From Asanoa ferruginea (lineage in GTDB: Bacteria > Actinomycetota > Actinomycetes > Mycobacteriales > Micromonosporaceae): a stretch of 64,000 nucleotides of DNA. Positions 9,898-52,266 of this stretch are shown here, in pieces. Position 1 is the first letter of the stretch. Each line of letters opens with the position of its first letter. The notes under the pieces were generated by a model. It was not told where the DNA came from and ran no database searches. It saw nothing but the letters and a program-made list of their open reading frames with translations. The stretch is from assembly GCF_003387075.1 (NCBI RefSeq), contig NZ_QUMQ01000001.1, positions 8,990,001 to 9,054,000 on the forward strand, given 5' to 3'. The position numbers were made by a program, and so were the translations under genes.

Positions 9898-9910
9898 AGA
9901 CGCATTCTCC

Positions 9911-9945
9911 CTGACCGCTCGGTCAGGATCTGACCGAGCGGTCAG
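9911..9945. promoter_or_regulatory. twin TetR operators upstream of tetR-mmpL
   Basis: CTGACCGCTCGGTCAG (9911-9926) and its exact reverse complement (9930-9945) are separated by 3 nt. Each contains its own palindrome TGACCG-NN-CGGTCA, so two sites sit with centres 19 nt apart, on nearly the same helix face. They begin 14 nt upstream of the tetR start codon. Confidence 0.85.
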
Positions 9946-9960
9946 GTTTAGTGACCCAAG

Positions 9961-10737: not shown

Positions 10738-10826
10738 GCCGCAAGCCAACCGCCGGCCGCCGCCCGGGTCTGGCGGCTTTCGGACCCGACCGTCCGCGGT
10801 TGGCGTGATCTGCGACGCTCGCTTGT

Positions 10827-11402
10827 GTGGACACGTTGGTCGCTCAGCTTCCGGCCCTGATCGGCGTCGTCGTCGGCACCCTGGCCACGATCCTGACCAC
10901 GACGCTGACGGACCGAACCCGCTGGCGGCGGACGCTGGCGGTGCGCTGGGACGAGCGCCGCCTGGACGCGTACGTCGCTTACGCGTCGGCGGTCAAGGAG
11001 ATCCACGCCCTGCTGTTCCGGATCACCGCGGCCGACCGGCCGGGGTCGCTCGCACACCGGATCGACCGCGAGACGGGCCTGGCCCTGCTGGCCGACGCCG
11101 ACGCGGCACGCACGAAGGCGTGGGAGAAGGTGCTGATGCTGGGCGACGAGGCCGCCGTCGCGGCCGCCCGGGAGTGGCGGGAGGCGGTGCGTCAGCTCGA
11201 GTTCTTCGCGCTGGGGGTCACCGACGACTGGGAGCGCTGGGACAGCGCGGTGCGCGACGTGGATGACGCCCGGGACCGGTTCTACGTCGCGGCCCGCGCG
11301 AGCCTGACCGTGGGTGGCGGAAGCGTGGCCCAGTCGCCCTGGTTGGCGGAAGGGAAACTCGCTCCGGTCCAGCGCGACGTGAACCGGGTTGCTGAACGGT
11401 AA
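10827..11402 (+). CDS. hypothetical protein with one N-terminal membrane segment
   Basis: 191 residues from GTG 10827. Residues about 8-28 are a hydrophobic segment (ALIGVVVGTLATILTTTLT) followed by basic residues, which puts the rest in the cytoplasm. The remainder is charged and mostly helical, with a 'TRWRRTLAVRWDERRLDAYVAYASAVKEIH'-type start in which the R-W-R and DERR-L-AY segments stand out. I recognise it only as a type of small actinobacterial protein with no assigned role. It is divergent from the PEP-mutase-like gene and is not clearly in an operon. Confidence 0.65.
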   Translation: MDTLVAQLPALIGVVVGTLATILTTTLTDRTRWRRTLAVRWDERRLDAYVAYASAVKEIHALLFRITAADRPGSLAHRIDRETGLALLADADAARTKAWEKVLMLGDEAAVAAAREWREAVRQLEFFALGVTDDWERWDSAVRDVDDARDRFYVAARASLTVGGGSVAQSPWLAEGKLAPVQRDVNRVAER

Positions 11403-11475
11403 CGGTTCCGGTCGGTAGGGCCGTCTTTCCGTGCACCGGCTTCGGTCTCGGCCGCTCGTTCCTAGCGTCGTCCGT

Positions 11476-11676
11476 ATGGACCGTCCACACCGCACCCGCG
11501 CCCGCTGTATGGCGATCACCCGCCGCGGCTACCAGTGCCCGATCGGGCCGCGCCCCTCCGGCCTGTGCCATGTGCACGACCCCGCCGTGCAATGCGGCGG
11601 CACCAAGCGAAACGGCGCCCGCTGCGCGGTCGCCACCGGCGGCGGGCTGTGTCGGGCCCACCGCGACCAGCGCTAG
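11476..11676 (+). CDS. small twin C-x9-C-x8/9-C-x2-H protein (putative zinc-binding)
   Basis: 66 residues from ATG 11476 (an upstream GTG-type extension to 11431 is possible). The protein is two copies of one module: C-x9-C-x9-C-x2-H (RCMAITRRGYQC...GLCHVH) and C-x9-C-x8-C-x2-H (QCGGTKRNGARC...GLCRAH). Each has a basic T-x-R/N-G turn. The spacing is that of small zinc-ribbon-like domains (similar to DUF5763-type 'C.A.T..G..C' proteins). Metal binding is inferred; nucleic-acid binding is plausible from the Arg content. The next gene starts 10 nt after its stop, so the two are probably co-transcribed. Confidence 0.65.
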   Translation: MDRPHRTRARCMAITRRGYQCPIGPRPSGLCHVHDPAVQCGGTKRNGARCAVATGGGLCRAHRDQR

Positions 11677-11686
11677 GGTGCCCACC

Positions 11687-12046
11687 GTGGACATCCTCGG
11701 AGATGAGCCGCTCGTCGACGGCATGACCATCTCGTTGCGCTACCGCCGCGACTTCGTCGTGGCCGACGCGGCCCGGCTGCTGGCCGAGGCGCGCCGGCTG
11801 CATCGCGAACTGCAGCCGGGCGCCGACGCCGAGGCGGCGGTGACCTGCGCCGCCGACGCGATCTACACGATCCTGCAGCACGCCGGGATCGTCGGCGACG
11901 CCGTCGACGCCGAGCTGGTCACGCCCGGCCTGGAGCTTGCCGGCTGGCGCTCACAGATCACCGTCAACGAGCCCGAACCGTTGCGCCCCGGCTACGACTG
12001 CCTGCGCACCGGCGACCTCTTCGCGCTGCCACCGGAACAGGCCTGA
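11687..12046 (+). CDS. hypothetical protein, 119 aa
   Basis: Start taken at GTG 11687, just after the stop of the twin-Cys/His gene; the same frame is open further upstream inside that gene, so a longer form cannot be excluded. The product begins MDILGDEPLVDGMTISLRY and contains a helical middle rich in Ala/Arg/Leu ('ARLLAEARRLHRELQPGAD') and a C-terminal strand-rich part. No membrane segment, no known motif. It converges on the leftward gene ending at 12052. Confidence 0.55.
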   Translation: MDILGDEPLVDGMTISLRYRRDFVVADAARLLAEARRLHRELQPGADAEAAVTCAADAIYTILQHAGIVGDAVDAELVTPGLELAGWRSQITVNEPEPLRPGYDCLRTGDLFALPPEQA

Positions 12047-38614: not shown

Positions 38615-39322
38615 GTGGTGCCCGTGGAAGCGACCGAGATCCGCAAACTCGCCGCGCTGGAAGACCGCCACTGGTGGTACTACGAGCGCCGCGTGCTCCT
38701 GGCCCGAGCGCTGCGCAAGCTCGGCACCCCCGGTGCGGCGCTCGACATCGGCGCCGCGGGCGGCGGCAACACGCGGGTGCTGCGGGCTCACGGCTGGCAG
38801 CCGGTCGCGCTCGAATACGGCGAAGAGGGTGCCTCGGTGGCCCGCGAGCGCGGCCTGTCGGTGATCCGCGCCGACGCCCGGCACCTGCCCGTGCCGGCCG
38901 CGCGGCTCGACCTGGTCACCGCGTTCGACGTGCTCGAGCACATCGACGAGGACCACGAGGCCGCGGCGGAGATCCGGCGGGTCCTGCGGCCGGGTGGCAC
39001 GGTGCTGATCGCCGTACCCGCTGACATGAAGTTGTGGTCGGCGCACGACGAAGCGGTCGGGCACGTGCGGCGTTACGACCGGGCGGGTCTGCTCGACCTG
39101 GTCGAGAAGGCCGGCCTCGTGGTCGACGAGCTGTGGAGCTGGAACGTGCTGCTCCGCCCGGTCGCCGCGTGGCGCCGCCGCAAATCCACCGGCAGCGACC
39201 TCGACGACCTCGCCACCCCCGTCAACCTCGGCCTGCGCGCGGTGATCGCCGCCGAACGCTATCTTCCGGTGAAATCATTGCCCGGCGTCTCGCTGATGAT
39301 GCGGGCCCACCGTCCGGCTTAG
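38615..39322 (+). CDS. class I SAM-dependent methyltransferase
   Basis: 235 residues from GTG 38615 (GTGs at 38618 and 38624 are alternatives). Rossmann methyltransferase: motif I 'ALDIGAAGGGNTRVL', acidic residue at the end of strand 2 ('ALEYGEEG'), motif III 'DLVTAFDVLEHI', 'LRPGGTVLIAVPA'. Near the N-terminus 'ALEDRHWWYYERR' is typical of a methyltransferase subgroup met near glycosyltransferases and lipid genes. The C-terminal 70 residues add a lid. First gene of a probable three-gene operon (13- and 4-nt gaps) ending in a GHKL ATPase. Substrate unknown. Confidence 0.85.
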   Translation: MVPVEATEIRKLAALEDRHWWYYERRVLLARALRKLGTPGAALDIGAAGGGNTRVLRAHGWQPVALEYGEEGASVARERGLSVIRADARHLPVPAARLDLVTAFDVLEHIDEDHEAAAEIRRVLRPGGTVLIAVPADMKLWSAHDEAVGHVRRYDRAGLLDLVEKAGLVVDELWSWNVLLRPVAAWRRRKSTGSDLDDLATPVNLGLRAVIAAERYLPVKSLPGVSLMMRAHRPA

Positions 39323-39335: not shown

Positions 39336-39983
39336 GTGTTGGCACCCCTGAAGAACATGCTCAGCAACGTCACGATGTATGTGGCGCTGCAGAAGGCGCT
39401 CGGCTCCGACCGGCTGCGCTACCGCTGCCTGGCCGAACTCGACCTGCACGACGGTGACACGGTGATCGACGTGGGCTGCGGGCCGGCCTACTACTTCGAC
39501 CGGCTGCCGAAGGTGACCTACTTCGGCTTCGACACGTCGGAGCGTTACATCGCACACGCGTCGGCGCGGTTCGGCTCGGAGCGGGCGACGTTCTCCACCG
39601 AGATCTTCGGCGAGCAGCACCTGGGCGTGCTCCCACCGGCCAACGCGGTGCTGCTGCTCGGCCTGCTGCACCACCTCTCCGACGAAGACTCCCGGTCGCT
39701 GCTGCGGGTCGCGTCGCGGGCGCTGGCGCCCGGCGGCAAGGTGATCGCCGTCGACACCTGCTACGCGCCGGGCCAGGGCCGCGTGTCCAAGTGGATGAGC
39801 GACAACGACCGGGGCGAGCACGTCCGCGAGCCGGCCGCGTTCGAGGCGCTGGCGCGCGAGTCGTTCGCCGACGTGTCCGGCGAGGTGGTCGACGACGCCA
39901 CCCGGGTGCCCTCCAGCTTCTGGCTGATGCGGATGGCCAGCCCGCTCGCGGTCGCCGCGTCGCCGTCGGAGACCGCCGGCTGA
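39336..39983 (+). CDS. class I SAM-dependent methyltransferase
   Basis: 215 residues from GTG 39336, 13 nt after the preceding methyltransferase. Motif I 'VIDVGCGPAYYFD', strand 2 'YFGFDTSERYIAHA', 'AVLLLGLLHHLSDED' and 'LAPGGKVIAVD'. Short N-terminal helix with 'MLSNVTMYVALQKALGSDRLR'. Not close to the other methyltransferase in sequence, so this is not a simple duplication. Its stop is 4 nt from the start of the GHKL gene. Substrate unknown. Confidence 0.85.
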   Translation: MLAPLKNMLSNVTMYVALQKALGSDRLRYRCLAELDLHDGDTVIDVGCGPAYYFDRLPKVTYFGFDTSERYIAHASARFGSERATFSTEIFGEQHLGVLPPANAVLLLGLLHHLSDEDSRSLLRVASRALAPGGKVIAVDTCYAPGQGRVSKWMSDNDRGEHVREPAAFEALARESFADVSGEVVDDATRVPSSFWLMRMASPLAVAASPSETAG

Positions 39984-39987
39984 ACCC

Positions 39988-41766
39988 ATGCGCCGAGTCC
40001 ACCTGGAAGCCGCGGAAGATCATGTCCAGCGGCTGGCGCGTGAGAGCGACCCGCTGGGTGCGGTCAAAGAGCTGATCTGGAACGCGCTCGACGCCGACGC
40101 GACCCGGGTCGACGTGGTGTTGCACCGCTCGCCGCTCGGTGCCGTCGAACGGGTGACCGTGCACGACGACGGCACCGGGATGGCGCCCGAGGCGCTGGCC
40201 GCCGCGTTCGACCGGATCGGCGGGTCGTGGAAGAAGTGGACCTCGGGCACCCTGCTCAAGCAGCGCACGCTGCACGGGAGCAACGGACAGGGCCGGTTGC
40301 GGGCGTACGCGCTCGGCGACCACATCCGGTGGACGACAGTGGCCGACGGCGGTGGCGGCCGGTCCCGCACCGAGGTGTCGGCGCACGCCGCCACCCGCAA
40401 CGACTTCCTGATCGGTGACAGCCGGCCGACCACCGACCCGACCGGCACCCTCGTCGAGGCCTGGGGCAAGCAGTCGCCGCGGCTCGACCGGCTGCCGTTG
40501 CGGGCCAACCACCGGCGGCTGACCACCGAGCTGGCGCCCTACCTGACCGCCTACCCGGAGGTCACCGTCGTCTACGACGGCACACCCGTCGACCCGGGCA
40601 CCTCGATCCGGCGGACGGCGGTCTACCCGCTGGCTTTCGGCGCCGAGACCGCCCAGCTCAAGGTCATCGAGTGGTCGGCTGCGGTCGACCGCGAGCTGCA
40701 CCTGTGCGACCAGCACGGCATCCCGGTCGGCTCGGTCGACGCCGGCATCCGGGCGCCGGGGTTCGACTTCACGGCCTACGTGCTGTGGCACGCGATGGCC
40801 GACAACGTGGGCGACGTGCACCTCGGCGACGCGCACGACAGCCAGGTCACCGCCCTGGTCGCCGTCGCCCGCGAGCAGCTCCGGGCCCACTTCCGGAGCC
40901 GGGCCGACGACCGGCGGCGGGAGCTGGTCGAGGGCTGGCGGGCGGAGGGCAGCTACCCCTACGACGGCGCACCGGCCGGCGAGCCCGCGCGGGTCGAGCG
41001 GGAGACGTTCGACCTGGTGGCCACCACCGTCCACCGGCATCTCCCGGGCCGCGGCAACCAGCGGCGCGGCACGCTGCGGCTGCTGTGCGAGGTGCTGCGG
41101 TCACAGCCCGACCGGGTCGCCGACCTGCTCGACGACATCTTCAAGCTGTCCGACGACGAGCGCGGCCAGCTCGACCAGGCACTGCGCCGGACCGCCGCGC
41201 CGCGGGTGATCCGGGCCGCGACGACGGTCGCCGACCGGCTGGGCGTCATCGCGGCGCTGCGCCGGCTGGCGCTCGACGAGCGCGCCGAGGATCCGGCCGC
41301 GCTCCGCGCCCTGCTGGCCGACGAGTCGTGGGTGTTCGGCGAGCGGCACGGCCTGCTGGCCGGCGACCGCACCCTCGACGGGCTGCTGGTGCGGCACGCC
41401 GAGGTCGAGGTGCTGCTGGCGCTGGCCCGCCGCGAGCACGAAGGCCGCCAGAACCTGGTCGTGGTCGCCGCGCCGACGGTCGGGTTGAAGGAGCTGGCCC
41501 GGGTGACCGCGTATGCCGACGCCATCGCCGGCGACGGCGGGTTGCGGGGCCGGCGGGTCGACTGGGACGTGTGGCTGGTGGGCTCCGAGGTCGACAGCGA
41601 AGCCCGGCTGGAGGCCCGCCATCCGGACCGCCCGCCGGGATGCGTGCAGGACCGGGTCGAGGGCGGCAACCGGGTGCGGGTCTGGGCCCGGAGCTGGTCC
41701 GAGGTGGTCCACGAGTGCGCCGACCGGGTGCGCTTCTACCAGGACAGCATGGCCGACCCGAGCTAG
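39988..41766 (+). CDS. GHKL (Hsp90/MORC-like) ATPase with a C-terminal REase/Shedu-like region
   Basis: 592 residues from ATG 39988. GHKL ATP lid motifs: N box 'KELIWNALDADA' (27-38, Glu28, Asn32), G1 'DDGTGM' (60-65) and G2 'HGSNGQGRLRAYALG' (96-110). A middle domain follows, then a C-terminal region with 'DESWVFGERH' (445-454) and 'LVVVAAPTVGLKELARVTAYADAI' (490-513). That region has the layout of the Shedu/REase-like domain attached to conflict-type GHKL ATPases, in which this place reads D-x(n)-E-x-K. Here the acidic and lysine residues are missing, so it looks catalytically dead. Last gene of an operon with two methyltransferases; its TAG overlaps that of the opposing channel gene inside the tetranucleotide CTAG. 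Role: possible DNA- or RNA-related defence or repair, inferred. Confidence 0.78.
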   Translation: MRRVHLEAAEDHVQRLARESDPLGAVKELIWNALDADATRVDVVLHRSPLGAVERVTVHDDGTGMAPEALAAAFDRIGGSWKKWTSGTLLKQRTLHGSNGQGRLRAYALGDHIRWTTVADGGGGRSRTEVSAHAATRNDFLIGDSRPTTDPTGTLVEAWGKQSPRLDRLPLRANHRRLTTELAPYLTAYPEVTVVYDGTPVDPGTSIRRTAVYPLAFGAETAQLKVIEWSAAVDRELHLCDQHGIPVGSVDAGIRAPGFDFTAYVLWHAMADNVGDVHLGDAHDSQVTALVAVAREQLRAHFRSRADDRRRELVEGWRAEGSYPYDGAPAGEPARVERETFDLVATTVHRHLPGRGNQRRGTLRLLCEVLRSQPDRVADLLDDIFKLSDDERGQLDQALRRTAAPRVIRAATTVADRLGVIAALRRLALDERAEDPAALRALLADESWVFGERHGLLAGDRTLDGLLVRHAEVEVLLALARREHEGRQNLVVVAAPTVGLKELARVTAYADAIAGDGGLRGRRVDWDVWLVGSEVDSEARLEARHPDRPPGCVQDRVEGGNRVRVWARSWSEVVHECADRVRFYQDSMADPS

Positions 41767-42662
41767 CCTGGCCGCTCGCGGTCGATGCGCAGCTCACGCT
41801 CCAGTTCGGACAGAGCGAGGCGTAGGTCGTCGATCCGTTGCGCGATGGCGATCCGGTCGACCTCGTCGGGCTCCCCGTCGCCGTCGCTGTCGTAGCCCGG
41901 CGCCAGCCCCTCGGTCATCTCCAGCCGACGGGCCTCCTCCATCGAGTTGACGATGACCGCGATCAGGATGTTGAGCAGCAGGTTCGCCGTGATCAACACG
42001 TAGCTGACGTAGTAGACCAGCGTCCACGGCGAGACGGTCAGGCCCTGCTCGATCAGGCCCGGCAGGGTCTCCTGGGAGAGCAGCACGAAGAGGGTCAGCA
42101 CGGCCTGGCCGAGCGAGCCGTACTGGTCGGGGAAGCGTTCGCCGAAGATCAGCCAGCCGGCCATGCCGTAGACGTAGAGGGTCACCAGGGCCAGCGCGAG
42201 GAAGCCGCCGACGCCGGGGAGGCTGCGCAGCAGCGCGGTGACGATCGTGCGAAGACCAGGAGAGAACCGGACCAGCCGGAGTACGCGCGCGATCCGCACG
42301 ATCCGCAGGGCGGTCGAGTCGCCGTGCAGGCCGGGGATGAAGGCGGCCGCGATGACCGCGAAGTCGAAGATGTTCCACCCGTGCCGGAAGAAGTCCTGCG
42401 GCCGGCGGCCGTGCGTGCCGATCCGCACCGCGATCTCGACGACGAAGACGGCCCGGAACATCCATTCCAGCACGTGCAGCAGCGGCCTGGCCCCGCCCAG
42501 GTGCGGGTAGGTCTCGACGCCGAGCACCACCGCGTTGGCCCCGATCGCGACCACGATGACCACGTCGAACGCCCGCGAGTCGACGATCCGCGCGCACCGG
42601 GCGGCGAACGGCGAGAGCCGCGCGGGACTCGCACGCTGTGCGGGCACAGCAGGCTTGATCAT
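41763..42662 (-). CDS. voltage-gated ion channel of the bacterial single-repeat type with an EF-hand loop
   Basis: 299 residues from ATG 42662 (TTG one codon earlier possible). Six TMs: S1 about 31-49, S2 61-81, S3 95-112, S4 118-138 with five arginines every third residue (120, 123, 126, 129, 132), S5 151-175, S6 212-239. The pore motif between S5 and S6 reads SQETLP (196-201) in place of the usual TLESW of NaChBac-type channels: Glu is kept, Trp is missing. The cytoplasmic tail has a full EF-hand loop (258-269, D-x-D-x-DG...D...D) and a C-terminal coiled coil (270-296). Predicted Na+ or Ca2+ channel gated by voltage and perhaps Ca2+. Confidence 0.82.
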   Translation of the reverse strand: MIKPAVPAQRASPARLSPFAARCARIVDSRAFDVVIVVAIGANAVVLGVETYPHLGGARPLLHVLEWMFRAVFVVEIAVRIGTHGRRPQDFFRHGWNIFDFAVIAAAFIPGLHGDSTALRIVRIARVLRLVRFSPGLRTIVTALLRSLPGVGGFLALALVTLYVYGMAGWLIFGERFPDQYGSLGQAVLTLFVLLSQETLPGLIEQGLTVSPWTLVYYVSYVLITANLLLNILIAVIVNSMEEARRLEMTEGLAPGYDSDGDGEPDEVDRIAIAQRIDDLRLALSELERELRIDRERPG

Positions 42663-42724
42663 CAATGGATCCTAGACGTGGGGCAGCGCGCGGACCATCG
42701 ACCGCCTACGGTGCGTTCGTGCGT

Positions 42725-44170
42725 ATGAACCGCAAGATCGCCACCCTCCTCGCCCTCCTGGTCGGTGTGGTCGGCACCGTCGCCGTCGCGTCACCCGCGG
42801 CCGCCGCGATACCGACCGTCACCGGCACCGCCGTCTGCGACGCCGTCGCGAGCAACTGGACCGTGACCTGGAACGTTCTCAACCAGGACGAGACCCCGAC
42901 CCCCATCGACCAGGTCGTCCTCACCCCCGGGGCGCCGGTCAGCACGTTGACCGGCATCGCCTCCGGTGACCTCATTCCGCCGAAGTCGGCGGGCCCGCTG
43001 ATCGCGACGTCCATCGTGCACAGCTACGCCGCGAGCAAGGTCGTCCTCCTCCTCAAGTTCCGCAGCGGCGGATTCGCGACCAGCGTCGCCGGCACGGTGA
43101 ACCTGCCGAGCGTCTGCGGCAACCCCATCCGGCCGACGGTCACGCTCCAGTCCCGCTGCGACGACCTGCTCGCCACGGTGGCGCTGCCCGCCGGCGGCTA
43201 CCCGGTCAACGTCGAGGTGTCCGGCAGCGGCCTGTTCTCCAGCACCCTGCAACTGCAGCCCGGTGCGCCGGCCCAGTCCGTCGCGGTGCCGTGGCAGGAG
43301 GCCAATCCCGTCACGGTCAACATCCGCGCCGTCACACAACTCGCGACGGCCAACTGGACCAACCCGGCGACCTGCCTGCCGCCGTCGGTCGGCTCCTACC
43401 AACTGTTCGCGCCGGCCAACTACCGCTATGTCCGGGCGACCACCGAGCACACGCTGACCGCGGCGGCGATGGGCGGGCACGAGGCCGACACGACCTTCGA
43501 GTTCTACGACGCCGGCGCGGGCGACGTCGCCATCCGCGCGACCGACCGCAACCGCTTCCTGACCGTCTCCGCCGAAACCGGTGCGGTCGAGCCCAACAGC
43601 CTGCGGATCCTTGGCGACAACGAGAAGTTCCGGATCACCACCAACGCCGACGGCACGGTGAGCCTGCGGGCCAAGGCCAATGCGAAATACCTCACCGCCG
43701 ACCCCACCGGCGCGCCGCTGGTCGCCAGCAAGGATGCCATCGGGGTGACCGAGAAGTTCACGCGCTACGCGCCGCTGACCGGGCCGGGCCCGCTGCTCTC
43801 GCTGATCAACGGCCGCTACGTGACGGCCGACTCGGCCGGCACCAAGCCGCTGATCGCCAACCGCGAGGTCGTCGGCCACTGGGAGCAGTTCCAGATCGAA
43901 GACCTGGGCGCCGGTCTGGTGGCGCTCAAGGCCCTGGTCAACGGCAAATACGTGTGTGCCGACGGCGCCGGCACCAAACCGCTGATCGCCAACCGGGCCA
44001 CCGTCGGTCCCTGGGAGACCTTCCGGCTCGTCACCAACGCCGACCTGTCGATCAGTTTCCAGGCGACCATCAACAACAAGTACGTGACGGCCGAGTCGGC
44101 CGGCACGAAACCGCTCATCGCCAACCGGGCGACGATCGGCCCCTGGGAGAAGTTCCACGAGCCGTTCTGA
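42725..44170 (+). CDS. secreted protein with fascin-like (beta-trefoil) repeats
   Basis: 481 residues from ATG 42725 (GTG 42719 also possible). Signal peptide 1-28 (VASPAAAA|IPTV). Residues about 30-235 are a beta-rich domain with Cys pairs. Residues about 237-481 contain six ~42-residue repeats of the actin-crosslinking/fascin type ('GRYVTADSAGTKPLIANR..VG.WE.F'); the last three (period about 130 nt) are nearly identical, with 'GTKPLIANR' in each. Six repeats make two beta-trefoils. Such modules bind carbohydrate or other ligands; no catalytic site is visible. A surface or secreted binding protein; no partner adjacent. Confidence 0.8.
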   Translation: MNRKIATLLALLVGVVGTVAVASPAAAAIPTVTGTAVCDAVASNWTVTWNVLNQDETPTPIDQVVLTPGAPVSTLTGIASGDLIPPKSAGPLIATSIVHSYAASKVVLLLKFRSGGFATSVAGTVNLPSVCGNPIRPTVTLQSRCDDLLATVALPAGGYPVNVEVSGSGLFSSTLQLQPGAPAQSVAVPWQEANPVTVNIRAVTQLATANWTNPATCLPPSVGSYQLFAPANYRYVRATTEHTLTAAAMGGHEADTTFEFYDAGAGDVAIRATDRNRFLTVSAETGAVEPNSLRILGDNEKFRITTNADGTVSLRAKANAKYLTADPTGAPLVASKDAIGVTEKFTRYAPLTGPGPLLSLINGRYVTADSAGTKPLIANREVVGHWEQFQIEDLGAGLVALKALVNGKYVCADGAGTKPLIANRATVGPWETFRLVTNADLSISFQATINNKYVTAESAGTKPLIANRATIGPWEKFHEPF

Positions 44171-44176
44171 GCCGGC

Positions 44177-44812
44177 TCAGGACACGATGGACGCGCGCCG
44201 GGCGAGGACCGCATCCGCGATCGCCCGGGGCGCGGTATCTGGGTTGCCGGAGCGGTAGGGCGGCCGCGGGTCATATTCGTGCGCGAGCTGGATCGCCTGG
44301 GCCACCGCGTCACCGGCGATCCGGCCCGCGAGCGCGAACGCCATGTCGAGCCCGGCCGACACCCCGGCCGCGGTGACGTATTTGCCGTTGAAGACGACCC
44401 GGTCGGCGATCGGGATGGCGCCGTGGTCGGCCAGCGCGTCGCGCACCAGCCAGTGACTGGTCGCCGGGCGGCCCGTCAGCAGGCCGGCGGCGGCGAGCAA
44501 CAACGAGCCGGAGCAGACCGAAGCCGTCCAGGTGCTGTGCGCGTCGACCGCCTGGATCCAGCGCCGCACCGGGCCGTCGGCCATGTGTGCGTTCTGGCCC
44601 GGGCCGCCGGGCACCACGACCACGTCGGGGCGGGTGACGTCGGCGAGGGCGGCGCCGGCGACCAGGTGCAGGCTGCCGACCTCGTTGACCACCGGCCCGG
44701 GCTGCTCGGCGACGAACACCACCTCGGCGCCGGGCAGGTGGCTGAGCACGTCGTAGGGGCCGACGACGTCGAGCGCGGTGAACCGGTCGTACAACAGGAT
44801 GGCGATCTGCAC
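44177..44812 (-). CDS. DJ-1/PfpI family protein (isonitrile-hydratase-like)
   Basis: 211 residues from ATG 44812. Class I glutamine amidotransferase-like fold with nucleophile-elbow Cys in 'TASVCSGSLLLAAAGLL' (about residue 100), acidic residue in 'LYDRFTALDVVGPYDVLSHLP', and 'TSHWLV' plus 'GKYVTAAGVSAGLDMA' after it. The pattern is that of the AraC-less DJ-1 group including isonitrile hydratase and cyclohexyl isocyanide hydratase. It probably handles small electrophiles. The TetR gene ends 12 nt upstream, so it is co-transcribed and under its control. Confidence 0.87.
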   Translation of the reverse strand: MQIAILLYDRFTALDVVGPYDVLSHLPGAEVVFVAEQPGPVVNEVGSLHLVAGAALADVTRPDVVVVPGGPGQNAHMADGPVRRWIQAVDAHSTWTASVCSGSLLLAAAGLLTGRPATSHWLVRDALADHGAIPIADRVVFNGKYVTAAGVSAGLDMAFALAGRIAGDAVAQAIQLAHEYDPRPPYRSGNPDTAPRAIADAVLARRASIVS

Positions 44813-44824
44813 CGGGTTTCTCCT

Positions 44825-45382
44825 TCAGGTCAGATGGGCGTCGAGCGTGGCGCGCAGCAGTGGCTCCGGGTCGTCGGCGCCGGTGGCGAGTTGCAGGCTC
44901 CCCCAGGCCCAGAGCTGCGCGATCCCGTGCAGGTTGGCCCACAATGCGCCGGCCACCACCCGGGCCGGTGCCGCCGACCTCGGGCCGGCCTGCCGCACCA
45001 GGTCGGCGAGGCGGGCGAACAGGGGCAGGCTGGTGTCGCGCAGGCCGAGGTGGCCGCTGGCCAGCAGGTCGTGCCGGAACATCAGCTCGAACATGCCGGG
45101 ATTGGCCCGGGCGAAGGCCAGGTAGGCCCGGCCGAGGGCGATCAACTGGTCCCGTGGCGGCCCGTCAGGCGCGCCCTCGACCTGCGCGGTCAGGTCGGCG
45201 AAGCCCTCCCGGGCGATCGCCGAGAGCAGTTCCAGGTGGGTGGGGAAATAGCGGCGGGGGGCGCCGTGTGACACGCCGGCCTGGCGGGCGATCTCGCGCA
45301 ACGTCAGCGCCGCAAGCCCTTCGCGGGCGAGCAGCTCGACGCCGACCCGGACGAGCTTGTCGCGCAAACCGTCATCGCTCAT
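44825..45382 (-). CDS. TetR family regulator with twin operators
   Basis: 185 residues from ATG 45382. HTH 'LREIARQAGVSHGAPRRYFPTHLELLSAIAREG' at about 28-58, and a WHG-type C-terminal domain ('LARANPGMFELMFRHDLL', 'LWANLHGIAQLWAWGSL'). Two perfect palindromes at 45382-45418 cover its own start codon and the stop codon of the gene upstream, so tight autoregulation is expected. The DJ-1 protein gene follows 12 nt downstream and should be induced with it by an unknown ligand. Confidence 0.92.
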   Translation of the reverse strand: MSDDGLRDKLVRVGVELLAREGLAALTLREIARQAGVSHGAPRRYFPTHLELLSAIAREGFADLTAQVEGAPDGPPRDQLIALGRAYLAFARANPGMFELMFRHDLLASGHLGLRDTSLPLFARLADLVRQAGPRSAAPARVVAGALWANLHGIAQLWAWGSLQLATGADDPEPLLRATLDAHLT

Positions 45383-45418
45383 AGACAGTGTCTACCAGAG
45401 CGCCGTAGACACTGTCTA
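45382..45418. promoter_or_regulatory. twin TetR operators overlapping start and stop codons
   Basis: TAGACAGTGTCTA (45382-45394) and TAGACACTGTCTA (45406-45418) are each palindromic and are exact reverse complements of each other, centres 24 nt apart. The first contains the ATG of the TetR gene, the second contains the TAG stop of the methyltransferase gene. Confidence 0.87.
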
Positions 45419-46264
45419 CCGCTGGAACTTCCAGATGATCGCGGCGGGCGTGTTCTCGTAGGCGGCGTCGACCGCCTCGGCCGCCCAGGCGCGCAGGAAC
45501 GGCCCGCCGCCCTCGGCGCTGCGCGGCCAGCGCGGCTCGCGGCAGGCCCGCACCGTGAGCCCGGCACCCAGCGCGGCGGTGACGTAGTCAGAAGGGCGGA
45601 ACCGGCTCGCCGGCATTCGCGACTCGACGCCGGAATCGTCCACCGTGGACGCGATGCCGCCCAGGTAGAGCGACTGCCAGTGGATGTCGGAGGTGACCAG
45701 GTGCCCGCCGGGGCGCAGCACCCGGGCGAACTCGGCGAACGCCGGCTCCAGCGCCGGCAGATGGGTCAGCGCCAGCGCGCAGGTGACCAGGTCGACGGAA
45801 CCGTCGGCGACCGGCAGCCGGCGCGCGTCGCCGCGCACGAACAGCGCCCCCGGCACGGTGCGCCGCGCCACGGCCAGCATGTCGGGGGAACTGTCGACAC
45901 CGACGACGGCGTGCCCGGCGGCCGCCAACGAAAAGGCGTGCCGCCCGGTGCCGCACGCCGCGTCGACCGCGCGGCCCGGTGCCAGCCCGGCCAGCAACTC
46001 GCGCACGACGGGCTCCTCGACGTCGATCAGCGGGTTGCCGGGCTCGTCGTAGGTGCGCGCCCAGATCCGGTAGCCCGCGACCGTGTCCGTCTCACCGACG
46101 TGATCGCCGGCGCCGAGCGAGCCACGCTCGTCGGCCGCCAGGATGGCCCGCACCTCGGCGAGCCGGGCTTCGACGAACGCGGCGTCGAACTCCCCCGCGA
46201 ACGCCCGGTGCAGCGCGAGCCCTTCCATGCCGAGCAGGAACGCGGCCGGGTGTCGATACGCCAT
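45416..46264 (-). CDS. class I SAM-dependent methyltransferase
   Basis: 282 residues from ATG 46264. A ~60-residue N-terminal helical part, then the Rossmann core: motif I 'AVDAACGTGRHAFSLAAAG' (about residues 98-116), 'VVGVDSSPDMLAVARR', 'GDARRLPVADGSVDLVTCALALTHL', 'LRPGGHLVTSDIHW'. The end contains a YENTPAAIIWKFQR tail. Substrate not inferable. Its stop codon lies within the TetR operators, so a bound repressor would stand in the way of read-through into tetR. Confidence 0.85.
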   Translation of the reverse strand: MAYRHPAAFLLGMEGLALHRAFAGEFDAAFVEARLAEVRAILAADERGSLGAGDHVGETDTVAGYRIWARTYDEPGNPLIDVEEPVVRELLAGLAPGRAVDAACGTGRHAFSLAAAGHAVVGVDSSPDMLAVARRTVPGALFVRGDARRLPVADGSVDLVTCALALTHLPALEPAFAEFARVLRPGGHLVTSDIHWQSLYLGGIASTVDDSGVESRMPASRFRPSDYVTAALGAGLTVRACREPRWPRSAEGGGPFLRAWAAEAVDAAYENTPAAIIWKFQR

Positions 46265-46306: not shown

Positions 46307-48610
46307 TCAGCGCAGTTCGTAGATGAAGATCCGGCCGTTGTCGTAGCGCAGGTTGGCCAGGATCCGCAGTTCCGGTGACTCCATGGCGACCTGGCGGTCG
46401 GCGACCAGCCAGTGCACCTTGTCGTCGTTGGCCAACGAGGTCAGCGACGCCGCCGTGGGCGTGGTGAACGCGGCGTCGTTGCGGGCCAGCAGGGCCGGGT
46501 CCCAGAACGCCCACGAGCCTGACGAGGAGACCCGCGGCGCGAACGCCCAGCCCTCGACCAGCACCCGGCGCTCCGCGTAGGCCGAGAGCCAGAACGACCG
46601 AGGGTCGCAGTAGCCGTCGGTCGGCGCGTTGATGCAGTGCGCGTTGGTGGCCACCACGTCGGTCGGCGCGCTGTGGTCGCGCAGCCAGCGGGCCGCGTCG
46701 ACGCGCGACTTCGGCAGCGAGACGGTGGCGTAGGCGCCGCCGTTGGAGAACCGTTCCGACTTGCGCATGTCCATGATCAGGCCGGGCGCACCGACGACCA
46801 GGATGGCCGTCAGCGCGACCACGCCGCCGGTGCCGCGCAGCGCGGGCTGCCAACGGCTCAGCGCCGGCCAGAGCGCCGCCACCACCAGACCGGCCGCGGC
46901 GAGCACCAGCGACCAGCGCAGCAGCGGCGTCAGCGGGTCGATCGCCTGCGGCGGCACCGACGCCTCGGCCGGGCCGGCCAGCTTGAACTGGGCGACCACC
47001 AGCACGATCGCGAACGCGAGCGTCTCGACGGCCAGCAGGGTCCGGCCGGCGCGGGAGAGCTTGGCGCGGTCGTAGACCATCGCGTAGCCCCACGCGGAGA
47101 GCAGCACCGCGAAGGTGAAGCCGGAGCGGGTGAAGTATTGGTTGCCGTCGCCGGGCTGCTTGACCATCAGGTAGATCAGCGGGCCGCCGATGCCGCCCGC
47201 GAGCAGGAACACCTGGGTCGGGTCGAGGCGGCCGCGGCGCAGCCAGAGCAGCGGCACGATGCCGACCGCGCGCAGTTGCATGTTGACCAGGAACGCGAAC
47301 ACCACCGAGAGCACCGCGAGCCAGGTCGGGCCGTCGGCCGGGGTCCAGAACCGCTCGAAGCTCCAGAACGGCTCGGGCGTCACGCCGTAGGACTGGAACC
47401 GGAACAGCACCGCCAGGGCGAAGAGCTGGGCGGCGCCGGTCAACACGCCGAGGATCAGCAGCGTCCACGGGACCCGGCGGCGCACCGCCAGCACGACGAC
47501 GAAGGTCACCAGCAGGGCGACCGCCACCACCGGCAGCGAGCTGGCCTTCGCGCCGCTGGAGGCGAGCAGCAGCAGGAACGCGAGCACGAAACCGCCCCGG
47601 CCCAGGACCCCGGTGATCAGCCCGCAGATCACGCCGATCAGCGCGATCAGCAGCACCCAGGAGTAGATCATCGACATGCCGTGCCAGATGACGAACGAAC
47701 TCTGGGTGCCGAACGGCATCGTGACCGGGTCGGTGAAGTTGGTTTCGCCGATGACGAAGAACAGCGCCGCCGCGACCGCGCCGACCAGTGCCCGGCCGCT
47801 GATCCGCCAGCCGACCACCGCGGTCAGCAGGATCGCCAGCGCGCACAGGAACGGGATCGCCAGCCGCAGCGCGACCACGGGCAGGTCGATCCCGGCGATC
47901 ATGCTGGTCGACGCCATGTGCGCGTAGCCGAACCAGTGGTAGAACAGCGGCTCGCCGGCGACCTGCGGCACGTGCAGCGGGAACTGGTATTTCGCCTCGC
48001 CCGCCAGCGACAACTGGTAGGCCAGGTCGAGATACTGCCGGGTGTCCTCGGAGGTCGGCAGGATCGGGTTGCGCTCGAGGAACGTCGACGACAGATAGGT
48101 CGTGAAGAACGCGACCGCGCCCCCCACCGCCCACGAGAAGCCCAGCGGCGCCAGGGTGTAGCCGTCGCGCACCAGGAAGTGCCGCCGCAGCCGGGGCACC
48201 GCCGCGAACAGCGCGACCACGACCAGCGGCCAGGCCCACAGCACGCCGCGGATGTCGAGCACCGAGACCAGCGTCCAGGCCGGCAGTTCCAGCACGAGGC
48301 CGACGGCCGTGCCCATCGCGAGGTCGTCGATCAGCGAGTGCGGCGTGCGGCGCAGCGCCCGGTAGACCAGCGTGCCCGGCAGCATCAGCGCGAGCGCCAG
48401 GTAGAGCGCGTATTTGACCAGGTCGAGAACGGCGGTGTCCGCGGCGATCAGGACCGCCGCGACGTAGAGCACCGTCGCCACGAAGGGCAGGAAACGCAGG
48501 AGGGGATACGCGCGACCGGCCTCGCCGGCAGCGGAGGAGCCCGAGCCGGCGGGGGCGGGCACGCTCTGCTGTGCCGGCGGGGACGTGGGGTGGTCGGGTG
48601 GAGCGGTCAC
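46307..48610 (-). CDS. large polytopic membrane protein, probable GT-C glycosyltransferase
   Basis: 767 residues from GTG 48610, overlapping the stop of the GT2 gene by 4 nt. A Pro/Ser-rich cytoplasmic N-terminus is followed by about 14-15 TMs and a C-terminal extracytoplasmic domain (about 655-767, 'ARWLRDHSAPTDVVATNAHCINAPTDG'). Acidic residues in the first large outer loop ('PTSEDTRQYLDLAYQLSLAGE') sit where GT-C enzymes keep their catalytic Asp/Glu. Together with the GT2 partner, it suggests transfer of a sugar from a polyprenyl phosphate to a surface glycan or protein. Family-level assignment only. Confidence 0.75.
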   Translation of the reverse strand: MTAPPDHPTSPPAQQSVPAPAGSGSSAAGEAGRAYPLLRFLPFVATVLYVAAVLIAADTAVLDLVKYALYLALALMLPGTLVYRALRRTPHSLIDDLAMGTAVGLVLELPAWTLVSVLDIRGVLWAWPLVVVALFAAVPRLRRHFLVRDGYTLAPLGFSWAVGGAVAFFTTYLSSTFLERNPILPTSEDTRQYLDLAYQLSLAGEAKYQFPLHVPQVAGEPLFYHWFGYAHMASTSMIAGIDLPVVALRLAIPFLCALAILLTAVVGWRISGRALVGAVAAALFFVIGETNFTDPVTMPFGTQSSFVIWHGMSMIYSWVLLIALIGVICGLITGVLGRGGFVLAFLLLLASSGAKASSLPVVAVALLVTFVVVLAVRRRVPWTLLILGVLTGAAQLFALAVLFRFQSYGVTPEPFWSFERFWTPADGPTWLAVLSVVFAFLVNMQLRAVGIVPLLWLRRGRLDPTQVFLLAGGIGGPLIYLMVKQPGDGNQYFTRSGFTFAVLLSAWGYAMVYDRAKLSRAGRTLLAVETLAFAIVLVVAQFKLAGPAEASVPPQAIDPLTPLLRWSLVLAAAGLVVAALWPALSRWQPALRGTGGVVALTAILVVGAPGLIMDMRKSERFSNGGAYATVSLPKSRVDAARWLRDHSAPTDVVATNAHCINAPTDGYCDPRSFWLSAYAERRVLVEGWAFAPRVSSSGSWAFWDPALLARNDAAFTTPTAASLTSLANDDKVHWLVADRQVAMESPELRILANLRYDNGRIFIYELR

Positions 48611-49626
48611 CGCAGGCTGTCCGCCAGCACGGCCGGATCGTCGCCGGTGCGACGCTGTTCCGGTGCGGCACCAGGGTCGCCGGCGTCGCCGGGATCGCTG
48701 TCGGTGGCCACGAAGTAGGCCGGCCGGGCCTGCACCGCCGTGTAGATCCGGGCCACGTATTCGCCGAGCAGGCCGAGGCAGAGCAACTGGACGGCCCCGA
48801 GGAACAGCACGGCGACCAGGATCGACGGCCAGCCGGAGACCGTGCGGCCGGAGACGAACGCGGCCAGCACCGCGATCACCAGCAGCCCGCAGACCGCGAC
48901 ACCGACCAGGCCCAGCCAGGTCGCCACCCGCAGCGGCGCCGCCGAGAAGCTGGTCACGCTGTCGGCGGCCAGGGCGAGCATCCGGGAGAACGGATATTTG
49001 GTGCGGCCCGCGGCCCGCTCGGCGCGCAGGAAGCGCACCTCGCCGCTCGGGAAGCCGAGCCAGGGCACCACCAGGCGCAGCACCGGGGTGCGCTCGGGCA
49101 GGTCACGCAGCGCTTCCACGGCGACCCGGCTGAGCAACCGGAAGTCGCCGGCCTGCGCGGGCACCTGCTTGCCGACGAGGCGGCGCATCATCCGGTAGTA
49201 GGCGCCGGCGGTGAGCCGCTTGAACGCGGTGTCGGAGCTGCGGTCGGCGCGTACGCCATAGACGATGTCGAGGTTTTCCGACCGGGCCAGGGCGAGCATC
49301 TCCGCGATGGTCTCCGGCGGGTCCTGGAGGTCAGCGTCGATGCTGACCACATAGCTGCCGCGGGCCCGCATCAGGCCCGCGATCAGCGCCGCCTGGTGGC
49401 CGCTGTTGCGGCGCAGGCGGATCACCCGCAGTTGCGGCCAGCGGGCCCGGAGCCCGTGCAACCCCGCCGCGGTGGCGTCGGTGCTCCCGTCGTCGACGGC
49501 GACCACCTCGTAGGGCTCGGCCAGCCCGTCGAGGACCGTGCGCAACCGCTCCGCGAGCAGCGGCAGCACGCCTTCCTCGTTGAACATCGGCACCACAACG
49601 GAGAGTGCCGGATCCTGCTGACCCAT
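48607..49626 (-). CDS. GT2 polyprenyl-phosphate glycosyltransferase (GtrB/ArnC type)
   Basis: 339 residues from ATG 49626. N-terminal GT-A domain: 'LSVVVPMFNEEGVLP', 'VAVDDGSTDATAAGL', 'RRNSGHQAALIAGLMRARGSYVVSIDADLQDPPE' (DXD-type DAD) and 'GVRADRSSDTAFKRLTAGAYYRMMRRL'; then two C-terminal TMs (about 232-255, 270-292). It would make polyprenyl-phosphate-sugar on the cytoplasmic side, which is then used by the downstream GT-C protein; the 4-nt overlap of the two genes supports that pairing. Confidence 0.9.
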   Translation of the reverse strand: MGQQDPALSVVVPMFNEEGVLPLLAERLRTVLDGLAEPYEVVAVDDGSTDATAAGLHGLRARWPQLRVIRLRRNSGHQAALIAGLMRARGSYVVSIDADLQDPPETIAEMLALARSENLDIVYGVRADRSSDTAFKRLTAGAYYRMMRRLVGKQVPAQAGDFRLLSRVAVEALRDLPERTPVLRLVVPWLGFPSGEVRFLRAERAAGRTKYPFSRMLALAADSVTSFSAAPLRVATWLGLVGVAVCGLLVIAVLAAFVSGRTVSGWPSILVAVLFLGAVQLLCLGLLGEYVARIYTAVQARPAYFVATDSDPGDAGDPGAAPEQRRTGDDPAVLADSLR

Positions 49627-49686
49627 CGCGCCTGTGCTCCCTCCGCGCTCCGAACGGGGGAACCGTATCAGTTGCGGAGGGTTAAA

Positions 49687-51411
49687 TCAGCACACGCTAC
49701 GGGGCAAACCGGGCACTGGCACGGGCGACTTTCCCGTCGGCTTCTGCTTTCCGGCAAGCACCTGGGCGAGGGCCTTCAGCGAGTCGGGCGTCGACGAGTA
49801 GGTGGCCACCAGCGTCGGCGACGTGGCGCTACCGAGGATGTAGGGCGTGTCCATCGCGACCGTCACGTCGGCCTTCGGGTTGAGGTCGCCCGGGCCGTCG
49901 CCGTAACCGACGAGGTGCACCACCCGGCCGCCGCTCGGCACGACCTGGACGCCGGCGCTCTTCAGCGCCTTCTCCAGGGTTGCCTTGCTGGTGGCGCGAC
50001 CGCCCGAGGTGGTCACCGAGACCGGGCCCTTGACCGGTGCCGCGCACTGGCCACGGAGCTGGGTGACCGCCGCGCCGGCCAGGCCGCTGGCGACGCTGAG
50101 GTGCGACTGGGCGGCGAGCACGTTGTGGTCGGGGCCGGCCTGGGCGTCGGCGAGTGAGAAGCGCAGGGTCAGGTCGCGCGTCGCCGCCTCGACCAGCCGG
50201 TCCTTCTTCAGCGAGCCGTCGTGCAGCCCGTTGAGCAGGCCGTTGTAGGCACCGTCGACGCTCGGCGGCATCAGCAGCAGGTCGTTGCCGGCGTTGAGGG
50301 CCCGGACGGCGGCCTCGCCGGCCGGCCACTGCTCGGCCGGCTCCATGTTGAGCGCGTCGGTGACCACGACGCCCTTGAACCCGAGCTGGCCGCGGAGCAC
50401 GTCGACGAGCGCCTTGTGCGAGAACGAGGCGGGCACGCCCGGCTCGATCGACTTCACGTCGAGGTGACCGCTCATCACGAGCTGCGCCCCGGCGTCGATG
50501 CCGGACTTGAACGGCACCAGGTCGGTCTTGTCGAGGTCGGCCTTGCTCTTGCTGATCACCGGCAGGGCGGTGTGCGAGTCGGAGGCGGTGCTGCCGTGCC
50601 CGGGGAAGTGCTTGAGCGTGGCGGCGACGCCGGCCGACTGGAGGCCCTTGACCGAGGCGGCGACCTGGTCGCCGACCGCCTTCGGGTCGCCACCGAACGA
50701 GCGCGACCCGATCACGCCGCCGTCGGCGGTGCTGAGCACGTCGGAGTCGGGGGCGAAGTCGACGTTGAGCCCCATCGCGCGCAGCTCGTCGCCGGCCACC
50801 GACCAACCCTGCTGTGTCGCCTTGGGCTGGTTGGCCGCGCCGAGCGCCATCGCGCTGGGCAGCACCGTTACGCCGGTCTTGATCCGGGTGACCGTGCCGA
50901 ACTCCTGGTCGGTGCCGATGAGGATGGGCGCCTGGCCGCCGGCCGCCTGCTGCACGCCGCCGGTCAGGGCGGTGATCTGCTTCGGGTTGTCGACGTTGGT
51001 GGTGGCCTGGTTGGTCGACGTGGGGTCGTCGGCGGAGAAGCCGACCAGGATCAGCCCGCCCAGGTGATATTTCTGCACCATCTGCGCGGGGGTGTCGACC
51101 TTGCCGAGCTTCTGGTTGCCGGCCGCGGAGGCCGCGCTCACGTCGGTCGCCGAGCTGCCGTAGGCGTAGGGCATCAGCACCTGGCCGGCGAGCTGCTCGT
51201 CGGAGAGTGTCTTGACCAGTGCGGCCGCGCGGCTGGCGGGATCGCTGCCGGTGCTCGGGCTCGGGGCGGGCGCCGTCGCCGCCGCGGAGGGCGGGGACGA
51301 GGACGGTGCTGCCGCGCGGGGCGCCGGCTTGCCGCATGCGGTGATGGCCACAAGGATCGCGGCCACAACCGCGGCGAGAAGTAACGCGAGGCGGCTCCGG
51401 GGGGAGGCCAT
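49687..51411 (-). CDS. lipoprotein GH3 glycosidase (beta-N-acetylhexosaminidase type)
   Basis: 574 residues from ATG 51411; the longer upstream frame is rejected because the signal peptide begins here. Lipobox ITAC with lipidated Cys26, then a Ser/Pro/Ala-rich linker (to about 58). GH3 N-terminal barrel: 'GLILVGFSADD', 'LIGTDQE', the NagZ-type KHFPGHG (267-273) with the following D-S-H, and nucleophile Asp352 in VVTDALNM. The KHFPGHG(S/T)..DSH signature is that of NagZ-like hexosaminidases that use a His/Asp dyad. A short C-terminal GH3 domain follows. Anchored outside the membrane, probably in peptidoglycan turnover or GlcNAc scavenging. Confidence 0.88.
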   Translation of the reverse strand: MASPRSRLALLLAAVVAAILVAITACGKPAPRAAAPSSSPPSAAATAPAPSPSTGSDPASRAAALVKTLSDEQLAGQVLMPYAYGSSATDVSAASAAGNQKLGKVDTPAQMVQKYHLGGLILVGFSADDPTSTNQATTNVDNPKQITALTGGVQQAAGGQAPILIGTDQEFGTVTRIKTGVTVLPSAMALGAANQPKATQQGWSVAGDELRAMGLNVDFAPDSDVLSTADGGVIGSRSFGGDPKAVGDQVAASVKGLQSAGVAATLKHFPGHGSTASDSHTALPVISKSKADLDKTDLVPFKSGIDAGAQLVMSGHLDVKSIEPGVPASFSHKALVDVLRGQLGFKGVVVTDALNMEPAEQWPAGEAAVRALNAGNDLLLMPPSVDGAYNGLLNGLHDGSLKKDRLVEAATRDLTLRFSLADAQAGPDHNVLAAQSHLSVASGLAGAAVTQLRGQCAAPVKGPVSVTTSGGRATSKATLEKALKSAGVQVVPSGGRVVHLVGYGDGPGDLNPKADVTVAMDTPYILGSATSPTLVATYSSTPDSLKALAQVLAGKQKPTGKSPVPVPGLPRSVC

Positions 51412-51533
51412 CGAGCAATGATGGCCAGACCGTTGCGAAATGAGCAAGTCAACCGGGCAATACGGTCGGTCCGGAATTCGCACGAAGCAGCAGCCCCTGG
51501 TCGGCGGTGGTGCGCGGTGGGCGGTTTCGAGGT

Positions 51534-51549
51534 CGTCCCTTCGGGGACG
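51534..51549 (-). terminator. UUCG-loop hairpin 3' of DUF3145
   Basis: CGTCCC-TTCG-GGGACG, a 6-bp stem with a very stable tetraloop (TTCG on the plus strand, CGAA on the minus transcript), lies 11 nt beyond the stop of the leftward DUF3145 gene. No U-tract. The rest of 51412-51559 shows nothing. Confidence 0.4.
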
Positions 51550-51559
51550 GCAAGGGCGA

Positions 51560-52051
51560 TCAGCCCACGCGGGTGAGCAGCGTCACCGGTGCCCCGTCGC
51601 CGGCGTAGCGGTAGGGCTCGAGTTCGCCGTCCCAGGCCGTGCCGAGCGCCTTGTCGAGGGCGTGCTGGAGCGCCTCGGGGGCGCGCGAGCTCGCCATGAT
51701 GGCCCGGAGCCGGTCTTCGCCGAGCTGGATGTCGCCCGCGACACCGGCGGTGGCCCGGAACAGGCCGCGGCCGGGCACGAACATGAAGCGTTCACCGTCA
51801 CAGCCCGGGCTGGGCTCTTCGGTGATCTCGAAACGGATCATGGGCCACTGCCGGAGGGCAGCAGCCAGCTCGGCGCCGGTCCCCGCGCGCCCGGTCCAGC
51901 TGCACTCGGTGCGGCGGGCGCCCGGATCGACGGGCTGCGCGCTCCAGTGCAGTGTGACCGGCGCGGTGAGGACGCGCGCGATCGCCCACTCGACGTGTGG
52001 GCACACGGCGAGCGGGGTCGAGTGGACGTAAACGACGCCACGCGTTGGCAC
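51560..52051 (-). CDS. DUF3145 family protein
   Basis: 163 residues from GTG 52051. Starts 'MPTRGVVYVHSTPLAVCPHVEWAIARVL' and holds 'HWSAQPVDPGARRTECSWTGRAGTG' and 'WPMIRFEITEEPSPGCDGERFMFVPGRGLFR', all typical of DUF3145, a small actinobacterial family whose Streptomyces member lies beside fabF. Function unknown. Here it is 14 kb from the fab operon, so the linkage seen in Streptomyces is broken. Cytoplasmic, no membrane segment. Confidence 0.87.
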   Translation of the reverse strand: MPTRGVVYVHSTPLAVCPHVEWAIARVLTAPVTLHWSAQPVDPGARRTECSWTGRAGTGAELAAALRQWPMIRFEITEEPSPGCDGERFMFVPGRGLFRATAGVAGDIQLGEDRLRAIMASSRAPEALQHALDKALGTAWDGELEPYRYAGDGAPVTLLTRVG

Positions 52052-52266
52052 GGTGACCTCCCGAAGACCCGAGGTGCGTCTTCCCCTACGACCTCGATCC
52101 GCGAGTGGTCAGCAATCATGATGACGCCTGGGGCCGATGTTGCGCCAGGGAATCGGAAAACTGGTTGGGACGATTGGTCCGGATGGCCGATCCACCCGCT
52201 GGTGTACCCTTCACTGGGCCCCTCCGGTCCAAATCCCTGTACCGCGCACCTTGCAAGGAGTCCCCC

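Follow-up and report, generated by a model that had tools for sequence, protein, structure and literature searches.

A genus-wide paraMORC3 descendant in Asanoa with a predicted dead nuclease domain

The paraMORC3 proteins consist of a GHKL ATPase domain, an S5-like domain, and a C-terminal restriction endonuclease (RE)-fold domain related to RecB-type nucleases, and they are described as patchy and mobile by Iyer, Abhiman, and Aravind (2008, PMC2292703). The same paper also places some paraMORC3 copies outside restriction neighbourhoods, proposes that recruitment gave a few of them other roles, recalls the degeneration of the MutL nuclease, and gives MORC proper a GhXhhpXXRhl motif in the S5 domain. 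VcSduA-like proteins (Shedu type I-D) were formerly annotated as paraMORC3, and VcSduA protects against phages, a protection abolished by E27A or K557A, according to PMC12137116. Here, a stretch of 64,000 nucleotides (hereafter the window; positions 8,990,001-9,054,000 of the 9.07-Mb single-contig genome of Asanoa ferruginea) was analysed for its 592-amino-acid GHKL ATPase, whose gene follows two methyltransferase genes (MT1 and MT2) and converges with a channel gene. A first-pass annotation of the window had suspected a new arrangement of methyltransferases, GHKL ATPase, and channel effector in phage conflict. We conclude that this is not a new conflict system; the ATPase is a genus-wide descendant of paraMORC3 with a predicted dead nuclease. 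Coordinates below are those of the window unless another locus is named, and G and L numbers are our handles for genomes and loci.

Family membership of the GHKL ATPase

The ATPase gene and its parts are given below, where omega is the ratio of nonsynonymous (dN) to synonymous (dS) substitution.

39988..41766, plus strand: paraMORC3-type GHKL ATPase, predicted nuclease-dead, 592 amino acids (Pfam HATPase_c_3, alignment, tree, profile comparison)
39988..40482, plus strand: GHKL ATP-binding domain, residues 1-165; N, G1, and G2 boxes intact; omega 0.087
40483..41022, plus strand: S5-like/middle region, residues 166-345; omega 0.31
41023..41226, plus strand: helical linker, residues 346-413; omega 0.42
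41227..41763, plus strand: decayed PD-(D/E)xK domain, residues 414-592; ExK gone, D changed to E, preceding loop deleted; omega 0.55

Pfam matched the protein with HATPase_c_3 (3.6e-16, 59.9 bits against a cut-off of 25), and HATPase_c fell slightly below its cut-off. In an alignment with 12 relatives, each of which combines the GHKL domain and the middle part with a D..ExK-bearing C-terminal domain, the ATP-binding residues were invariant (N-box E28 and N32; G1 D60, G62, and G64; G2 G97, G100, and G102), as the first-pass annotation had read them. By tblastn, 45 of 72,556 plasmid records held a relative; in 32 records the match extended over 80% or more of the query, and identities among the matches listed were 28-38%. 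Phage records yielded 2 relatives out of 50,697, at 26% identity, and a profile scan found 20 loci on viral contigs. A relative in Pasteurella phage Pmp14 (L035:8001-9959) is an intact paraMORC3-type gene amid tail genes, like prophage cargo, and near-copies of it lie on viral contigs L044-L046.

The C-termini of the relatives were nearest to HSDR_N_2, scanned as a fragment: all 25 that were scanned of 34 matched it within the limit of E 10, and the best relative (6.4e-7) was the first member under the curated cut-off. None of the five full-length Asanoa C-termini matched HSDR_N_2 at the same limit, nor any nuclease model in the Pfam scan. The SduA_C/DUF4263 signature, for which the first-pass annotation had proposed a search, was matched in Pfam by none of the C-termini, neither the 5 from Asanoa nor the 25 from relatives. 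Compared by hhalign with 14 SduA_C domains, the relatives reached 90.3% (E 1.5e-6), their D and ExK falling in register, and the Asanoa C-termini 11.4%. The Asanoa C-termini aligned to those of the relatives at 99.9% (E 1.8e-31), which bears out the earlier suggestion of a nuclease-like region that lacks D..E-x-K. Direct Shedu membership was rejected, and the name paraMORC3 was preferred because SduA_C was unmatched and HSDR_N_2 was nearest.

AlphaFold modelled the window protein confidently, with a mean predicted local distance difference test (pLDDT) score of 86.9; the blocks from residue 411 lay mostly at 86-94, with low ones at 73, 79, and 42. A helix-strand-strand-helix-strand order was common to its C-terminus and that of L050, a relative with an intact nuclease whose model scored 80.9. 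The L050 model was matched by many phage rIIA models, and a T4 rIIA-like role was set aside as reflecting the common GHKL module. For the whole-length window model, the PDB matches listed by Foldseek (50 of 359 at E<=0.001) were ATPase modules of MutL, TRAP1/Hsp90, MORC, and gyrase/topoisomerase IV, including GHKL+S5-type modules. MORC, for whose relatives the first-pass annotation had proposed a search, is among the ATPase modules listed, at a low identity of 10-18% across them.

Compared with these systems, the Asanoa protein shares with paraMORC3 a GHKL domain with intact motifs and a homologous C-terminal RE-fold domain; it differs in that ExK is missing, the gene occurs in all genus genomes compared, and strong constraint is confined to the GHKL part. 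With VcSduA it shares the domain order described in PMC12137116, and E27 of VcSduA, judged by position, probably corresponds to Asanoa E28. In contrast, VcSduA needs the nuclease lysine K557 according to that study, and that lysine, like the SduA_C signature, is absent from the Asanoa proteins. MORC and MutL are alike in their ATPase modules and unlike in the low identity; no CW or coiled-coil domain turned up, none having been sought. Recruitment to mismatch repair was rejected: no MutS (PF00488) was matched in the A. ferruginea genome, a difference from MutL, versus a match in 11 of 14 control genomes. The restriction enzymes BbrUII/HgiDII gave weak GHKL matches (NCBIfam 39.4 bits against a cut-off of 550; PADLOC REase_II 3.6e-6) that were confined to residues about 24-126 and far under the family cut-off. 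Judged from sequence, the Asanoa ATPase is a descendant of paraMORC3 and not an active member, with Shedu I-D as a functional neighbour; its origin in a GHKL-nuclease lineage of phage conflict, with VcSduA as the tested relative, is a part of the first-pass proposal that has stood. Among the matches listed in a literature search of titles and abstract openings, no nuclease-dead paraMORC3 was found.

Nuclease motif and history of the gene

Outside Asanoa, ExK was kept in 46 of the 48 copies that span the motif. Each of 34 distinct full-length genes had D, E, and K; D..ExK was present in 8 of 8 further relatives (7 full-length, 1 partial), and ELK with the D-strand was recognized by text pattern in 4 partial copies (L066, L070, L072, L076). 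The 34 genes are matches reaching from model position <=30 to >=610, taken as one row per 100-residue key, and equal 36 rows minus the second readings L016 and L017, which were subtracted by hand. Left out of them were L010/L023 (a truncated Asanoa copy), L014/L027, L051, L056, L066, L070, L072, L074, L076, L078, and L079, of which L051, L074, L078, and L079 fall short of the motif's place. In the further set, L123 repeats L018 and L132 stops short of the domain. Near-copies were counted (L035 with L044-L046; L047 with L054; L033 with L039).

In the five full-length Asanoa copies ExK was found in none: the E position is V, G, T, L, or L, its exact column varying with the alignment, and K is gone. 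D is retained in four of the five and is E in the window, a text-pattern search found no E-x-K anywhere in the five C-termini, and a loop of some 20-30 residues ahead of the D strand is deleted. The sixth copy (G088) has only 402 amino acids and its last eight residues equal the A. hainanensis tail (YPDRARR-), so the domain was excised by an in-frame deletion. On these grounds the nuclease is predicted to be dead throughout Asanoa.

The gene was present in all 6 Asanoa genomes versus 17 of 348 other genomes of the family, in 10 of 393 other genomes of a class-wide draw, and in 1 of 295 of a phylum draw with a single-sequence query; named records with a close relative numbered four, every one of them Asanoa (A. 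ishikariensis, A. siamensis, A. hainanensis, A. iriomotensis). In a tree of 45 N-terminal regions the six Asanoa copies form one clade (100/100), with L063 and L066 as nearest kin (96/89) and then L029, a Streptomyces plasmid gene (97/94), while some other branches are long and uncertain. ExK is intact in both sister genes (L063, and L066 although broken) and in the outgroup L029. The tree and the intact motif of the nearest relatives together assign the loss of ExK to the stem lineage of Asanoa, once a mobile gene had been captured.

Broken copies occur elsewhere in the family: L014/L027 is broken by deletions and a frame change, and G547 lies in two open frames. A DDE transposase gene interrupts L066/L107 (G618, 8563-11916), one of the two closest non-Asanoa relatives, after the ELK motif.

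Selection by domain and competing explanations

Omega was estimated by the Nei-Gojobori method domain by domain for the five full-length Asanoa copies (10 pairs, with bootstrap ranges). It was 0.087 (0.05-0.137) for the GHKL domain, 0.309 (0.236-0.411) for the middle region, 0.422 (0.287-0.661) for the linker, and 0.551 (0.433-0.677) for the C-terminus; an alternative run with slightly other limits, and with the sixth copy added for the first three regions, gave 0.100, 0.349, 0.486, and 0.548. Nine neighbouring genes ranged from 0.037 to 0.339 (fabF 0.117), and therefore only the linker and the C-terminus exceed them. The ratio of C-terminal to GHKL dN was 4.86-11.77 in the 10 Asanoa pairs versus 0.61-1.25 in 11 pairs with intact nucleases. 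The GHKL domain is thus under strong purifying selection, and the former nuclease domain under much less.

We consider it probable that this is an inherited, nuclease-dead paraMORC3 kept for a function of the ATPase that needs no nuclease. A mobile paraMORC3 gene would have entered the chromosome of the Asanoa ancestor immediately downstream of an older methyltransferase pair, where the short gap after MT2 may only supply a promoter; ExK would then have been lost on the stem while the GHKL domain was retained. ATPases of the MutL and MORC type generally dimerise through the GHKL domain. By analogy, the Asanoa protein most likely forms an ATP-driven dimer through this domain; it would bind and hydrolyse ATP and act as an ATP-gated, nuclease-free clamp whose target would be DNA or a partner protein. 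Its role would be chromosomal, or in defence without cutting of its own, and the clamp action would be what selection keeps. The locus is in effect a natural experiment in which an ATPase of paraMORC3/VcSduA type has been separated from its nuclease and selection retains the GHKL domain. If the protein works, a host can take over a defence GHKL ATPase without the nuclease, like the step proposed for the origin of eukaryotic MORC.

Several observations weigh against retention for a nuclease-free function, or against parts of the evidence for it. The first-pass annotation had proposed a comparison of the model with the RE fold, and no nuclease fold was among the 50 listed of the 359 Foldseek matches, ATPase modules alone being there; the fold is assigned from profile comparison and the order of secondary structure. 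The motif stretch is missing from two broken non-Asanoa copies (L014/L027, L056) that do extend across its place. The middle/GHKL dN ratio is 3.1 in Asanoa versus 1.07 in intact relatives, which is odd for a whole clamp, although the middle omega nevertheless lies inside the range of the neighbours. In five species the former nuclease keeps a fold-like core (omega below 1, and the high pLDDT given above), and this domain may still do something. Moreover, the pairs share branches, dS (unused by the dN ratios) is saturated in several control pairs, and Nei-Gojobori estimates, which ignore codon bias, are rough in GC-rich DNA and here come from only six Asanoa genomes.

The main rival, which we regard as unlikely, is that a defunct defence gene is slowly decaying, the nuclease first and the rest later, under no present selection. 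The relaxed C-terminus and middle region, the deletion of the domain in one of six species, and the broken copies elsewhere (L014/L027, L066/L107, G547) fit such a decay. Against it, the omega of the GHKL domain is comparable to that of fabF, all six open reading frames run through this domain, and all six genomes keep the gene. In a neutral simulation at 0.2 substitutions per site, the share of runs without a stop was 3.4% for the whole gene, 41% for the GHKL domain, and 39% for the C-terminus. Open frames alone are therefore weak evidence, and the low GHKL omega is the stronger.

Defence without a nuclease, in which the ATPase senses phage DNA and then recruits a separate nuclease or clamps the DNA, is likewise a doubtful explanation. 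The phage protection by VcSduA (PMC12137116) speaks for it, and so do the restriction genes beside three relatives of the Asanoa ATPase: L025 and L026 lie 3' of HsdM, HsdS, and HsdR (in L026 with an IS66 transposase between), and L028 adjoins an MmeI-type enzyme and an SNF2/PLD helicase. Among further relatives, L030 and L032 adjoin helicases, and the annotated gene nearest to L029 on its upstream side, at 1.1 kb, encodes an HsdM-type N-6 methylase. A restriction-type or helicase neighbour thus stands in 6 of 11 contexts; no such neighbour is annotated for L031, L033, L034, L036, and L035 (the Pasteurella phage), the plasmid annotation being incomplete. Beside the window ATPase there is no DNA methylase, helicase, or restriction nuclease, its neighbours being general class I methyltransferases and the channel. 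On the other side, the dependence of VcSduA defence on its nuclease lysine (PMC12137116) argues against a form that does no cutting. A trans-acting Shedu nuclease was rejected as well: the one SduA_C protein of the genome (G000:C1:3701097-3701546, L109) is unlinked, at 3.70 Mb, and SduA_C occurs in only 3 of 6 Asanoa genomes. Known defence genes, which the first-pass annotation had suggested looking for nearby, did not emerge when PADLOC was run on 14 other window proteins, of which only general parts matched. Three methyltransferases matched mad2 (MT1 1.5e-11, MT2 3.6e-10, and the one at 45416-46264 2.7e-19) only over model positions 268-423 of 492, a general S-adenosylmethionine (SAM)-binding part, and the GajB-type matches of the protein at 61880 were taken as general parts of a UvrD-like helicase.

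More specific roles, namely a disarmed subunit that poisons active paraMORC3s of plasmids or prophages via the GHKL dimer face, or a MORC-like ATP-gated clamp on chromosomal DNA, seem quite improbable. A nuclease still active through a moved catalytic residue is scarcely credible: all five copies retain one lysine beyond the site of the missing motif (LKEL in the window, AKDL/AKEL in three, GKDL in A. iriomotensis), and four retain D, but no C-terminus has E-x-K, constraint is weak, the domain is deleted in G088, and D has become E in the window.

Methyltransferases and channel

The other features around the ATPase gene are as follows.

38615..39322, plus strand: MT1, class I methyltransferase (Pfam class I methyltransferase match); half of an older MT1-MT2 pair, not ATPase-specific
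39336..39983, plus strand: MT2, class I methyltransferase (Pfam match); adjoins MT1 in G008 and G078, both without the ATPase
41763..42665, minus strand: voltage-gated-type ion channel (Pfam Ion_trans 2e-41); common in family genomes that lack the ATPase
39988..46264, no strand: block separating MT2 from the 46307 gene in the window; G078 and G008 lack it at the equivalent locus

The layout itself was read correctly by the first-pass annotation. Open reading frames and Pfam matches agree that MT1 and MT2 lie 13 nucleotides (nt) apart, that MT2 and the ATPase lie 4 nt apart, and that the converging ATPase and channel genes both stop within CTAG at 41763-41766. A joint action of methyltransferases, ATPase, and channel effector in phage conflict is nonetheless very improbable. 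This close packing, the common stop, and the presence of ATPase and channel together in all six Asanoa genomes favour it, and the evidence of synteny goes the other way.

At the corresponding site of G078, fatty-acid genes are followed by MT1, MT2, one flavin adenine dinucleotide (FAD) oxidase gene, the 46307 homologue, and then glycosyltransferase-/glycosidase-type genes, and in G008 MT2 directly abuts the 46307 homologue; ATPase and channel are both missing at this site in the two genomes. MT1 and MT2 are also 0.2 kb (G027) and 2 kb (G036) apart without the ATPase. Within the genus, the block from 39988 to about 46264 recurs in other Asanoa loci with rearrangements. In A. siamensis ATPase and channel stand together, with MT2-MT1 about 10 kb off in the opposite orientation; in A. 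iriomotensis MT1 is missing at the site, and none of the candidates scored in that genome matched it at E<=1e-30. Gene lists of the compared loci are approximate, as the caller took antisense reading frames in places (e.g. MT1 of G008).

Of 121 family genomes, 17 (6 of them Asanoa) had MT2 and 34 (5 Asanoa) had MT1, in searches that scored <=25 and <=23 candidates per genome, so that misses are not firm. A channel match at E<=1e-40 came from 70 of these 121, the six Asanoa among them, and one of at least 58% identity from 31 of 115 non-Asanoa genomes, 29 of which lack the ATPase. Among 40 ATPase contexts outside Asanoa neither the channel nor MT2 occurred, and MT1 gave two general matches of 77 amino acids. 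Near-copies are counted among these contexts, which extend to <=4 kb (viral) or about 6-9 kb (other) on either side, sometimes end at contig edges, and omit G478, G516, G547, G548, G555, G636, and the loci of the class-wide draw. Pfam gave no DNA-methylase match for MT1 or MT2.

Because the methyltransferase pair and the channel occur without the ATPase outside Asanoa, the three do not form one machine; by synteny, a defence operon of methyltransferases and channel was ruled out, and both look like accidental neighbours. Of the first-pass proposal, the recurrence of the three-gene order holds inside the genus; outside it methyltransferases and channel are untied from the ATPase, and the new arrangement falls with the coincidental order that the annotation itself had named as evidence against a system. 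The pairing of ATPase and channel in Asanoa may be one ancestral arrangement that was inherited. Tight packing of genes in GC-rich genomes should not be equated with a defence operon.

At the C-terminal end of the channel (residues about 259-270), a probable helix comes after an EF-hand-like acidic loop, DxDGDGxPDxxD. All 11 orthologues compared (six from Asanoa, the window's among them) conserve the loop, suggesting that channels of this family are controlled by calcium. The protein at 42665-44170 (plus strand) matches RicinB_lectin_2/DUF7910 and contains TKPLIANR-type repeats of a beta-trefoil or fascin-like kind, with no match to it beside the channel in five other Asanoa loci compared. The glycosyltransferase-/glycosidase-type block at 46307-52105 is inverted in the five other Asanoa loci compared, L002-L005 and L023, and its order in the window is that of G078.

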